Below are positions 5,512 to 13,872 of a stretch of DNA of 24,500 nucleotides, piece by piece; positions within the stretch are counted from its first letter, which is position 1; each line of letters begins with the position of its first letter. The DNA comes from a virus. A program made the position numbers and the translations under genes. The stretch spans positions 1 to 24,500 of the IMG/VR virus record IMGVR_UViG_3300027712_000143; one strand, given 5' to 3'. The notes under the pieces were generated by a model. That model had not been told where the DNA came from. It saw nothing but the letters and a program-made list of their open reading frames with translations, and made no database searches.

Positions 5512-5654
5512 TGGATGACGCATTAGAAATTTTAAATGATATACAAGCTATCTTAGATGACTTAGACTCATTTGATTTAGAATTTAGACTACGTAACTAT
5601 GTAGATTATAAACGACATGAGTTTGAACCTGCTAAAGGAGATTGTGTTGGATGA
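5511..5654 (+). CDS. Small acidic protein (47 aa)
   Basis: An ATG inside the preceding TAATG junction opens a 47-residue frame starting MDDALEILNDIQAILDDLDS and ending at a TGA at 5652-5654. It is acidic and strongly helical, so coiled-coil pairing is possible. Its last codons contain the ribosome-binding site (AAAGGAG, 5634-5640) and TTG start of the polymerase. Both ends being coupled to neighbours is the main evidence. Function unknown. Confidence 0.6.
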   Translation: MDDALEILNDIQAILDDLDSFDLEFRLRNYVDYKRHEFEPAKGDCVG

Positions 5655-6819
5655 ACTTATCATCGACGTTGAAACAACTATCTTTCAAAAAGGAGACCCG
5701 TTCAGTGGTAAAAACACTTTGCAGTATGTGGGAGTTCTTGATTCAAGAAATGCTACCAGCCTTTATGATATTGAATATAATGGGAGTCCTTATCGTAATA
5801 AACTTACTAGCTTGGATGTGGCTTGTAAAAACGTTCTTCTTGTAGGGTTTAACATTAAGTTTGACTTACACTGGCTACGTCGTTATGGTATTGACTTTAG
5901 CTCTTGTAAAGTATGGGACTGTCAGCTTGTACACTTTATACTAACCAACCAACAGTTTCCATACCCTAGCCTCAATGCAGTTGCTATGCACTATGGTCTA
6001 GAACAAAAGCTAGACGTTGTAGCTACAGAGTATTGGGATAACGGTATAGATACTCCTGACGTACCACAAGATGTGTTAGAAGCATATTTAGAACAAGACT
6101 TGCGTCTTACACAACAAGTATATCATAAGCAGAAGGAAGCTGTTGCTGCAGCTCCTGCTGCCCTACAAAACCTTATAGCGTTACACAACATGGACCTTAT
6201 GGTTCTAGAGGAGATAGAAGCTAATGGAATTAAGTTTGATGAAAGCGAGTGTCTTGTCCTTGCTATGGAACTTGAAAGTCAAATCAAAACAATTGATGAA
6301 GACCTCCTTAATTATGTTAATATTGACGGTTTCAACTTTAATTCTGGGGACCACTTATCTAGTCTGTTGTATGGGGGAGTTCTTAATTTCCCTAGGAAAG
6401 AAGTTATCGGAGTATACAAAGGCGGTGCTAGAAAAGGTGAGGAAAAACTAGGTTGGATAGACTACTATCATACATTCCCTCAACTTGTACAGCCACTAAA
6501 AGGTAGTGAGTTAAAGAAAGAAGGCTTCTATGCTACTAATGAACAAACACTTAAATCTCTTAAACCTAGTAAAAGTGCTAAACACCTTATAGAAATGCTA
6601 CTAGAACGTGCTGAATTGGAAAAACGTAGGGGTACATACTACCAAGGTTTACCAAACCTACGTGAAGAACATGACTGGGAAGTAAATACATTACATGGTC
6701 AACTAAACCAATGTGTAGCAAGAACAGGTAGACTATCTAGTTCACGTCCTAATATGCAAAACTTTGACGGGCAAATTAAAAACTTATTCTATACGAGGTA
6801 CTATGATGGGTTACTATAA
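5647..6819 (+). CDS. DNA polymerase family A, N-terminal part (3'-5' exonuclease plus thumb)
   Basis: 390 residues from TTG at 5647, chosen because AAAGGAG ends 6 bases before it; an in-frame ATG at 5617 lies upstream of that site and is less likely. Exonuclease motifs are intact: Exo I LIIDVETT (D7, E9), Exo II VGFNIKFD (N69, D73) and Exo III YLEQD (Y147, D151). The polymerase part follows and contains RTGRLSSSRPNMQNF (about 359-373), conserved just before the palm. The frame stops after NLFYTRYYDGLL, immediately before catalytic motif A, which is carried by the next gene. The two should assemble into one replicative polymerase with proofreading. No DnaJ-like insertion was seen between the exonuclease and polymerase regions. 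Confidence 0.85.
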   Translation: MDELIIDVETTIFQKGDPFSGKNTLQYVGVLDSRNATSLYDIEYNGSPYRNKLTSLDVACKNVLLVGFNIKFDLHWLRRYGIDFSSCKVWDCQLVHFILTNQQFPYPSLNAVAMHYGLEQKLDVVATEYWDNGIDTPDVPQDVLEAYLEQDLRLTQQVYHKQKEAVAAAPAALQNLIALHNMDLMVLEEIEANGIKFDESECLVLAMELESQIKTIDEDLLNYVNIDGFNFNSGDHLSSLLYGGVLNFPRKEVIGVYKGGARKGEEKLGWIDYYHTFPQLVQPLKGSELKKEGFYATNEQTLKSLKPSKSAKHLIEMLLERAELEKRRGTYYQGLPNLREEHDWEVNTLHGQLNQCVARTGRLSSSRPNMQNFDGQIKNLFYTRYYDGLL

Positions 6820-6845
6820 AAACTTAGATATTGAAAGGCAAGAAA

Positions 6846-7568
6846 ATGCTGATACAAGGCGATGCAAATGCACTGGAGTGGAGGGCAGCAGCCTTCCTAA
6901 GCCAGGACATGACAGCACACAAGGAGATTTGGGCAGAAGTAGACCAACATACGGACAATCAACTTCGCTTAGGTTTGCCTTCACGTTTAATAGCAAAAAC
7001 TTTTGTGTTCCGTCTGATTTATGGGGGCTCCGCTTACTCGTATGCCAACGACCCAGACTTTGTATCCGTGAGCCGTTCTGAAAAGTATTGGCAAAACATC
7101 ATTGACCAGTTCTATGAAAAGTATAGTGGTTTACGTAAATGGCATACAAATCTAATGCAAGAAGCTACTACAAAAAGCTGTATAACGTTACCAACAGGAA
7201 GAGTATACTATTATGAGCCAAAACAACAACGAGGAGAAATGGTATGGCCTAGAACAACTATTCTTAATTACCCAGTGCAAGGCTTGGGAGCAGACATCAT
7301 GGCTATTGCCAGGGTTGTATTGCATAATCGTCTAAAGAAATTAAATATACCAGAAGTAAAACTTGTTAACACTGTACACGATTCTATTATTCTAGATGCT
7401 CCTGATGAGCATACAGATATGCTATCAAATCTTATTCTAGATGTATTTGAAGCAGTACCTAAGAACTTTGAAAAACTATTCGGAGTACCATTTAACCTAC
7501 CTATGAAAGCCGAAGTGGAGTTCGGTAAAGATTGGAAAAATATGCAGAAATATGTTGCAACACCTTAA
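6846..7568 (+). CDS. DNA polymerase family A, C-terminal part (palm and fingers)
   Basis: 240 residues from ATG 6846 with AAAGG 7 bases upstream; an in-frame TTG at 6831 lacks a ribosome-binding site. It opens with motif A, MLIQGDANALEWR (catalytic D6). The O-helix motif B follows: SRLIAKTFVFRLIYGG with R47, K51, F55, Y59. F55 corresponds to Phe762 of E. coli Pol I, the type that discriminates against dideoxynucleotides. QGLGADIMAIA and motif C NTVHDSI (H178, D179) follow. All catalytic residues are present, so this is a working half rather than debris. Compared with a continuous family A polymerase, about 35 extra bases holding a stop, a ribosome-binding site and a start separate the halves. 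Confidence 0.85.
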   Translation: MLIQGDANALEWRAAAFLSQDMTAHKEIWAEVDQHTDNQLRLGLPSRLIAKTFVFRLIYGGSAYSYANDPDFVSVSRSEKYWQNIIDQFYEKYSGLRKWHTNLMQEATTKSCITLPTGRVYYYEPKQQRGEMVWPRTTILNYPVQGLGADIMAIARVVLHNRLKKLNIPEVKLVNTVHDSIILDAPDEHTDMLSNLILDVFEAVPKNFEKLFGVPFNLPMKAEVEFGKDWKNMQKYVATP

Positions 7569-13056: not shown

Positions 13057-13084
13057 AGAGCCCTGTAATTGCTTACAGAGCTCT
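13057..13084 (-). terminator. Rho-independent terminator for pqqA and minus-arm transcripts
   Basis: Read on the minus strand: AGAGCTCTGTAA, GNRA-type loop GCAA, TTACAGGGCTCT, then TTTTGAT. The 12 pairs are continuous with one U-G wobble; on the plus strand the same position would be a C-A mismatch, which favours function on the minus strand. The U-tract is short. Confidence 0.6.
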
Positions 13085-13108: not shown

Positions 13109-13182
13109 ACTCATTCTAGCTAATTTACGGGTGGCCAGCCAGCCTTTTCTCCTTAGATTAGTTAGAGTGGGTCTTTTTTTTT
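13109..13182 (+). terminator. Strong rho-independent terminator ending the plus arm
   Basis: Arms ACTCATTCTAGCTAATTT (13109-13126) and AGATTAGTTAGAGTGGGT (13155-13172) pair over all 18 positions, counting G-U pairs, followed by a C and nine T. The 28-base loop (GGGTGGCCAGCCAGCC, then TTTTCTCCTT) is unusually long. The T-run touches the stop codon of pqqA on the other strand. Confidence 0.75.
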
Positions 13183-13252
13183 ACTTATTCATAACGTACA
13201 TTGTTACTTCAAAGCCAAAACGCATTTCAGTAGCAGCTGGTTTAGTCCACAT
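13181..13252 (-). CDS. pqqA: PqqA, precursor peptide of pyrroloquinoline quinone
   Basis: A 23-residue gene with AGGAGA 6 bases before its ATG. It starts MWTKPA, has the core RFGFEVTMY and ends VMNK. Glu15 and Tyr19 are spaced ExxxY, the pair cross-linked to build PQQ. From memory, Klebsiella PqqA is also 23 residues, starts MWKKPAF and carries GLEVTLY with the same E15/Y19, and Acinetobacter PqqA has WTKPA and GFEVTMY. In bacteria PqqA is bound by PqqD and modified by the radical SAM enzyme PqqE. No pqqB-E genes are visible here, so the peptide would feed, or compete within, the host's own pathway. PQQ is the cofactor of methanol and other dehydrogenases. It has its own promoter and terminator. 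Identity is strong from sequence; the effect on the host is inference. Confidence 0.88.
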
Positions 13253-13272: not shown

Positions 13273-13303
13273 GTACAATATTATACTGTACATATATTAT
13301 AAC
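13273..13303 (-). repeat. Direct and inverted repeats in the pqqA promoter
   Basis: On the plus strand, GTACAATATTATAC (13273-13286) and GTACATATATTATAAC (13288-13303) are near copies, each holding a minus-strand TATAAT. GTACA (13273-13277) and TGTAC (13287-13291) also form an inverted repeat around the proximal one. This may be an operator. Confidence 0.45.
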
Positions 13304-13324
13304 ACAATGTAACTAAATTGTAAT
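13296..13324 (-). promoter_or_regulatory. Promoter of pqqA
   Basis: On the minus strand: ATTACA (13319-13324), a 17-base spacer and a perfect TATAAT (13296-13301), leading to pqqA about 45 bases on. A second TATAAT (13280-13285) lies closer to the gene with a poor -35. Sigma70-type; no transcript data. Confidence 0.55.
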
Positions 13325-13343
13325 CAGTATAATCATTAAAATA

Positions 13344-13435
13344 GTAGGTGCAAATTCGATAGCTATTACATGTAACGCAGAAAGCCGAAAAACTCGTTAC
13401 TTGCTATATCCTCTGTTGTCGGCTTAACCACCTAC
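13344..13435 (-). ncRNA. Candidate structured RNA with pseudoknot, upstream of pqqA
   Basis: Four helices fit within 92 bases. P1: GTAGGTG (13344-13350) with CACCTAC (13429-13435). P2: ATAGC (13359-13363) with GCTAT (13403-13407). P3: GTAACG (13372-13377) with CGTTAC (13395-13400). The P3 loop carries AAGCCGA (13382-13388), complementary over 7 bases to TCGGCTT (13419-13425) in the P1-P2 joint, making a pseudoknot. The minus strand is preferred because the plus strand has just passed a terminator, while minus-arm transcription from the endolysin runs into it and on to pqqA. P1 overlaps the endolysin stop. No Rfam family recognised. Confidence 0.5.
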
Positions 13436-13872
13436 AAAGTTTTACCTGTTAGAAAGTATTCCCTTTCATTCTGTCTACGTCTAAACAAACCTTCACTTCT
13501 TTTACCACCTGCATTACACCATTTTAGAAACTCGTTAGATGCTTCACCATACAGTTGCTCATTAAGTTTTCTTAATAGAGTAGATGTAGCAAAAGCATGA
13601 GCTCCTACGTTGTATGTAAAAGATACAAGAGCATCAAATTGGTTTTGTGATAATGCTACCTCTACTGCAGAGTTAATAGCTGTAACAGCCCACTGTACAT
13701 CTTTCTTTAACAGAGCAGTAGCTTCCATAGAACCTATAGTACCAAACACTTCACCTTGTACAATCTTATGTCCAAACCCTATAGTAGCAAAACCTGCTAT
13801 GTCTTTATAAGGTACTGCACTGTACCCTTCAAACTTCTTTATAAGTTCTAAACCTTCTTTAGATATATTCAT
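13432..13872 (-). CDS. Endolysin, T4-type lysozyme (glycoside hydrolase family 24)
   Basis: 146 residues. The N-terminus MNISKEGLELIKKFEGYSA carries catalytic E15, followed by D24 and T30 with the family spacing E-8-D-5-T, then TIGFGH. The C-terminal QNQFDALVSFTYNVG and FLKWCNAGGKRSEGLFRRRQNE are typical of phage lysozymes. It cuts the glycan strands of peptidoglycan. No signal-anchor helix is present, so it needs a holin to reach the wall. Two holin candidates lie at the far right end of the same strand. It shares a TAATG junction with the gene upstream of it. Confidence 0.9.
   Translation of the reverse strand: MNISKEGLELIKKFEGYSAVPYKDIAGFATIGFGHKIVQGEVFGTIGSMEATALLKKDVQWAVTAINSAVEVALSQNQFDALVSFTYNVGAHAFATSTLLRKLNEQLYGEASNEFLKWCNAGGKRSEGLFRRRQNEREYFLTGKTL

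Follow-up and report, generated by a model that had tools for sequence, protein, structure and literature searches.

The window analysed here, the first 24,500 nucleotides of the virus record IMGVR_UViG_3300027712_000143, carries on its minus strand a 92-nucleotide element which, as its homologues settle, is a real RNA. Comparison of sequences shows its pseudoknotted fold, its strand, that it follows a gene and that at orthologous sites in related phages it is exchanged for terminator-like hairpins, and from this we infer that it does a terminator's job. The element would then be a 3'-end RNA of Methylophilaceae phages standing in place of an intrinsic terminator, a reading which we consider evenly poised between right and wrong. 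As far as Rfam 15 and the literature searched show, this is an undescribed phage RNA family. It occurs widely in uncultured phages whose inferred hosts are Methylophilaceae, has strong covariation support and is linked to pqqA, which encodes the precursor of the methanol dehydrogenase cofactor.

The first-pass annotation had proposed three helices (P1, P2 and P3) and a 7-bp loop-to-joint pairing within 92 bases, with P1 crossing the endolysin stop codon and pqqA as a neighbor. All of this was confirmed, the coordinates and lengths included: the stop codon is 13434-13432 and the 23-aa ORF at 13181-13252 matches the Pfam PqqA family. When the element is numbered along the minus strand (position p is window position 13436-p, reading from 13435 to 13344), P1 takes element positions 1-7/86-92 (7 bp), P2 29-33/73-77 (5 bp), P3 36-41/59-64 (6 bp) and the loop-to-joint pairing 11-17/48-54 (7 bp), all of them perfect Watson-Crick helices. 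An extra 4-bp helix absent from that earlier list, P1b, pairs positions 21-24/82-85. The features are as follows:

13344-13435, minus strand: whole element, putative pseudoknotted 3'-end RNA (topology unique in the window; 24 of 29 pairs covary in 34 homologues)
13429-13435, minus strand: P1 5' strand, overlapping the endolysin stop codon 13432-13434 (7 of 7 pairs changed on both sides)
13344-13350, minus strand: P1 3' strand (same basis)
13419-13425, minus strand: pseudoknot 5' strand, in the joint between P1 and P1b (4 of 7 pairs changed on both sides)
13382-13388, minus strand: pseudoknot 3' strand, in the P3 loop (same basis)
13412-13415, minus strand: P1b 5' strand (3 of 4 pairs changed on both sides; also predicted by RNAalifold)
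13351-13354, minus strand: P1b 3' strand (same basis)
13403-13407, minus strand: P2 5' strand (5 of 5 pairs changed on both sides)
13359-13363, minus strand: P2 3' strand (same basis)
13395-13400, minus strand: P3 5' strand (5 of 6 pairs changed on both sides)
13372-13377, minus strand: P3 3' strand (same basis)
13432-13872, minus strand: endolysin gene before the element (Pfam Phage_lysozyme, E 5e-40; PHROG 7, endolysin)
13181-13252, minus strand: pqqA, 23 codons (Pfam PF08042, E 6e-11, 42.4 bits against a cut-off of 21.1)
13296-13324, minus strand: promoter-like site between element and pqqA (ATTACA, 17, TG-TATAAT; consensus 10 of 12)
13057-13084, minus strand: terminator-like hairpin after pqqA (1 found against 0.2 expected)

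This topology at the window's helix lengths did not arise in any of 20,000 dinucleotide shuffles, at relaxed lengths it arose in 14 of 4,000, and on the two strands of the whole window it was found at one place, the element. The nested minimum free energy is unremarkable (z -0.13; 88 of 200 shuffles equally or more stable), therefore stability by itself gives no support for the element. Equally stable shuffled controls, which had been named beforehand as counter-evidence, thus exist for the nested fold and not for the topology. Rfam 15 gave no covariance-model match at gathering score in the window, and three sub-threshold matches at chance level in 13300-13480 with E up to 10, the best of them 14.7 bits against a threshold of 60, so the element is not filed under any ribozyme, riboswitch or terminator family. 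The compact pseudoknotted RNA of the initial description holds; to its riboswitch or ribozyme form no known class in Rfam corresponds. No mention of this RNA was found in the literature searched, nor the terms PQQ, riboswitch or ncRNA in the OM43 phage papers PMC10580990 and PMC8024684. ARAGORN found no tRNA or tmRNA in the window. Elsewhere in the window a DNA-polymerase-like sequence, recognized by eye, extends over two adjacent ORFs (5617-6819 and 6831-7568) and could be a split gene, an intron or a frameshift.

Homologues were collected with a PqqA pattern that retrieved contigs from IMG/VR, within which BLASTN gave element copies of 71-93% identity, while a pattern for the element found at least 119 stretches in IMG/VR; locus counts from IMG/VR refer to the matches listed and are not frequencies. 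Of the 119 pqqA-pattern loci listed, 13 have the element according to a covariance model made from 28 distinct sequences; one of these copies, L130, is divergent. Relaxed patterns for divergent copies hit 2 and 4 contigs (copies L442-L445), and a bacterial copy, L452 (79 bits), was found in one Methylophilaceae genome out of 187. Four rows were left out: L214 and L299 because they duplicate the window contig, L454 because it duplicates L452, and L260 because its element sits at the edge of a contig. The L452 copy lies between two 194-nt direct repeats of 76% identity (L452:1189-1999) and, by eye, next to a CTP-synthase-like gene, and parts recur twice in one other genome. The element was not found in 399, 369 and 398 genomes from the order, class and phylum, respectively, in six pqqA phage records (P19250A, Venkman, ctXG6705, MEP402, MEP301 and Melnitz) or, as an exact pattern, in GTDB contigs. 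Neither phage records nor plasmids gave more than 40-bit chance matches in BLASTN searches with the element, and the endolysin, used as bait for relatives, brought generic lysozymes only, none with the element. Weak model matches, none above 22.3 bits, in five genomes of hosts were taken as chance.

In the alignment of 34 sequences 95.3% of cells are paired, and 24 of the 29 pairs are changed on both sides yet still paired, with all helices contributing; the shuffle control gave a mean of 14.4 with 0 of 500 as high, and slid partners at most 11. The pseudoknot, AAGCCGA in the joint after P1 with TCGGCTT in the P3 loop of the window, is paired in 97.5% of cells, with one mismatch in six sequences of one phage group. 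Both-side changes in its pairs come from L130 and L442, where it is re-paired as AAACTAC/GTAGTTT, and from L452, where it reads AAGCAGA/TCTGCTT. P1b was found by RNAalifold and its first pair alternates between U-A and C-G. When column pairs are ranked by plain covariation the proposed pairs are the top 6, and 13 of the top 20. On the given strand there are 20 G-U pairs to 8 A-C pairs, an excess which fits the window minus strand as the RNA strand. The compensatory changes that the first-pass annotation had asked for are present, and its compact, folded RNA with a pseudoknot next to pqqA is borne out. P1 is paired in 85.7% of cells, its outer two pairs being often unpaired. It varies more than any other helix (1.40 bits per column) and lies at the ends of an element whose middle is conserved. 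Integron attC sites have conserved complementary ends and a variable middle, and since the element shows the reverse, an attC site was rejected. Seventeen unpaired columns are invariant in all 34 sequences; they include GGAU between P1b and P2, AA between P2 and P3 and, in the loop, UUUU and UC. Many conserved positions are fixed in the pattern by which the first 28 sequences were retrieved, so that it enforces part of this invariance; nevertheless L130 and L452, recognized by the covariance model independently of that pattern, keep all 17 positions.

With the window copies removed, at least 124 element loci with 42 upstream and 30 downstream contexts fall in 19 groups when linked by either flank. 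Among the loci listed, pqqA stands on the same strand before the element in 91 of 124 and after it in 3, and none lies within 800 nt in 30, the corresponding numbers of groups being 11, 3 and 5; pqqA follows the element in the window contig (L086), L158 and L221. The pqqA stop is 4-6 nt before the element in 22 loci listed, larger gaps are common, and the distance to the same-strand gene in front of the element is usually between a few and 60 nt; these distances may be off by one base. Other upstream neighbors are the endolysin (window), HNH_3 (L251), a major head protein (L270), endonuclease VII (L266), a gene without assigned function (L216) and one that is weakly ADP-ribosyltransferase-like, below the Pfam cut-off (L297). 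Of the 23 downstream contexts with enough sequence, 15 begin with a gene on the opposite strand, 5 with one on the same strand and 3 with pqqA; 7 more, with too little sequence, are left out of this count. The layout of the window is the end of the late genes, the element and then a promoter-like site for pqqA; such sites number 3 against 1.8 expected, which is no proof of a promoter. L195 and L218 are laid out like the window, with TTGACA after the element, and a promoter consensus follows it also in L270 (all by eye). Similarity to the Methylophilaceae phage P19250A begins inside the P1 3' strand (window 13323-13349) and continues to pqqA, which on this comparison places a recombination joint at the element edge. 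Phage-type PqqA peptides in GTDB occur mainly in Methylophilaceae (Methylotenera, Methylophilus, Methylopumilus and OM43), some records being titled merely unclassified proteobacteria, and hosts of the pqqA-bearing phages are for this reason probably Methylophilaceae. The presence of pqqA in Methylophilaceae phages is already published (PMC7678222).

Other RNA-like stretches were seen near the element or pqqA. A second possible leader, CTACCAG...TTAGCGGTCA...CGGCTTCAGTAACCG...CTGGTAG...ACTGAAAGGTA, lies between pqqA and the next ORF start at four loci (L221:9230-9340 and L125:3517-3627 on the plus strand, and the minus strand of L245 and L251, the next ORF in L251 being HNH) and has no match in Rfam. 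L443 and L444 have in common a stretch, GCATAGCCCGAAG...CCACCAAGAAACAGAAGG, about 60 nt before the element, possibly another RNA. Downstream of the element in L270, L226 and L319 a structural gene is preceded by a conserved leader, AACCGGGAAT..ATCCGGCTTA.TAGAC.GTCCCGGC, which in turn follows a TTGACA promoter-like site.

The evidence for the 3'-end role comes mostly from loci that have the same flanks and lack the element. In the nine such empty slots, seen in two phage groups, there is a terminator-like hairpin with a T-tract (7 of 9) or a plain GC hairpin without one (2 of 9). L165, with the element, aligns with L196, L213 and L105, which have none, up to the element borders, and so does L195 with L156, L113, L097 and L184. 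Behind the endolysin of a relative of the window phage (L092) there is first a hairpin with a T-tract and next the convergent genes, with neither element nor pqqA. Of 80 pqqA clusters lacking the element, 52 have a terminator-like hairpin within 110 nt, a distance which may be off by one base; of 26 with it on either side, 9 do (Fisher p 0.011; 107 of 630 for random stretches). T is enriched behind P1 (3.5 of 8 against 2.3); by the measure of a GC hairpin followed directly by a T-tract, P1 has a mean of 5.7 bp, and the 8 nt behind it contain five T or more in 10 of 29 contexts, where 5.6% would be expected. The T-tract is missing after the element in many contexts, for example L195 and L107, and the element is therefore hardly a canonical intrinsic terminator. 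Terminators consistently flanking the element were not found, a terminator-like hairpin being present on the same strand within 120 nt before it in 8 of 41 contexts and after it in 3 of 26. Since such a hairpin stands before the element in those eight contexts or, by eye, right behind it in L130 and L442, the element is not always the sole end signal. These extra hairpins and missing T-tracts fit the making or protection of an mRNA end, or a separate ncRNA, as well as termination.

The 3'-end role is thus favored because slots without the element, that of L092 alike, hold hairpins, because pqqA without it more often has a terminator-like hairpin, because the pseudoknot and helices covary and T is enriched after P1, and because the next gene is mostly on the opposite strand and a promoter consensus follows in several cases. 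Against it speak the 17 invariant unpaired positions, which exceed the needs of a simple stop hairpin, and the limitation of the swaps to two large phage groups and that of the window. At the border of a transcription unit the element would fix or protect the end of the upstream mRNA, that of the late/endolysin operon in the window and of pqqA in most relatives, possibly by halting RNA polymerase, by keeping off 3'-5' exonucleases or by an end made by cleavage. That the late mRNA might be processed here, as initially suggested, is compatible with the data, since the element occupies the terminator site of the relatives. More tentatively, and with the balance leaning against it, the element could represent a new functional RNA class: in methylotroph phages a pseudoknotted structure would substitute for the intrinsic terminator by a mechanism of its own (self-cleavage or a polymerase stop free of a T-tract). 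If terminator replacement is true, it would be a compact and testable case of an elaborate RNA in a simple hairpin's job and a way into how phages shape the mRNA ends of accessory genes.

The element could instead be a new class of small self-cleaving ribozyme in phage intergenic regions, cutting the mRNA behind the stop codon. We hold this for rather unlikely and still for a serious rival because of the element's size of about 92 nt, its five helices with a pseudoknot and its 17 unpaired positions invariant in 34 of 34 sequences. Neither does the element have a fixed downstream gene, as is reported of hammerhead (PMC3088659) and pistol (PMC4604425) ribozymes at intergenic places in phages. 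However, no Rfam ribozyme family was matched, and aptamers and protein-binding RNAs can have the same appearance.

A gene for a trans-acting ncRNA (a protein-binding RNA, a decoy or a regulator), which the phage would carry as cargo in the manner of pqqA or a tRNA, is distinctly unlikely. It would account for the single copy in 27 of 27 element-bearing contigs and for positions that vary over the 19 groups; a tRNA gene found by Rfam lies directly before the element in L296 (142-212, minus strand), and in L261 and L283 the element is kept where, by eye, pqqA is gone save its start and end. A separate promoter was rejected, however, as -10 sites before the element are not enriched (13 seen against 9.2 expected, p 0.15), and the usual position just behind a same-strand gene and the swaps with terminator hairpins also argue against such a gene.

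Control of pqqA by a riboswitch or another 5' leader, proposed in the first-pass annotation, has become improbable. The order it needs exists in the window contig, L158 and L221, but a leader of pqqA is not supported, because the element usually lies just behind pqqA on the same strand. The next gene is most often on the opposite strand, in the window itself the promoter-like site (13324-13296) separates element and pqqA, and no Rfam riboswitch was matched.

It is very improbable that the element acts as DNA, as a cruciform or as a conserved target of the homing endonucleases often beside it. HNH/endonuclease VII genes repeatedly adjoin it (12 of 53 contexts by motif, with PHROG/Pfam matches), as in L224 (3061-3471, minus strand), L165 and L266, and on the upstream side in L251 and L245; one of them ends inside P1, and the pqqA end is duplicated near such insertions in L245 and L319 (by eye). 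The excess of G-U over A-C pairs and the covarying pseudoknot nevertheless point to an RNA in the given direction. A short peptide gene through the element (V-K-P-T-x-E-D ... F-F-G-F-L-R-Y) is scarcely credible and, like readthrough, was rejected: one frame (VKPT...FFGFLRYM) is open for about 20 codons in 34 of 34 sequences, but third codon positions have no excess variation (0.44, 0.55 and 0.55 bits), an in-frame start is missing in 19 of 34, and the spacing from the upstream pqqA stop does not preserve the frame.

Among known systems, sib of phage lambda retroregulation is a 3' UTR regulator and, as a plain RNase III hairpin, differs from the element. Like sib and the L17 downstream element (PMC2864571) our element is a structured RNA behind a possibly affected gene; it matches no Rfam 3' UTR element. 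The manA and wcaG RNAs, according to PMC2864571, are structured RNAs carried by cyanophages along with metabolic genes, manA in 5' UTRs; the element is likewise a phage-borne structured RNA near a metabolic gene, but it lies mostly behind genes and has no Rfam match. With the pistol, twister and hammerhead ribozymes of phages it shares size, a compact pseudoknotted fold, many invariant unpaired bases and an intergenic location, and it differs from small self-cleaving ribozymes in having no covariance-model match. In its pseudoknot the joint after P1 pairs with the loop that closes a single long hairpin, whereas in pistol the P1 loop pairs with the P2/P3 junction (PMC4604425). With intrinsic terminators the element has in common the genomic slot, in which the two are swapped in related phages, and sometimes a T-rich sequence after it. 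An intrinsic terminator is one GC hairpin, while the element has five helices, a pseudoknot and 17 invariant unpaired bases, and many copies go without a T-tract. The genomic slot is thus that of a known kind of signal, and the novelty is an architecture that differs from that kind.
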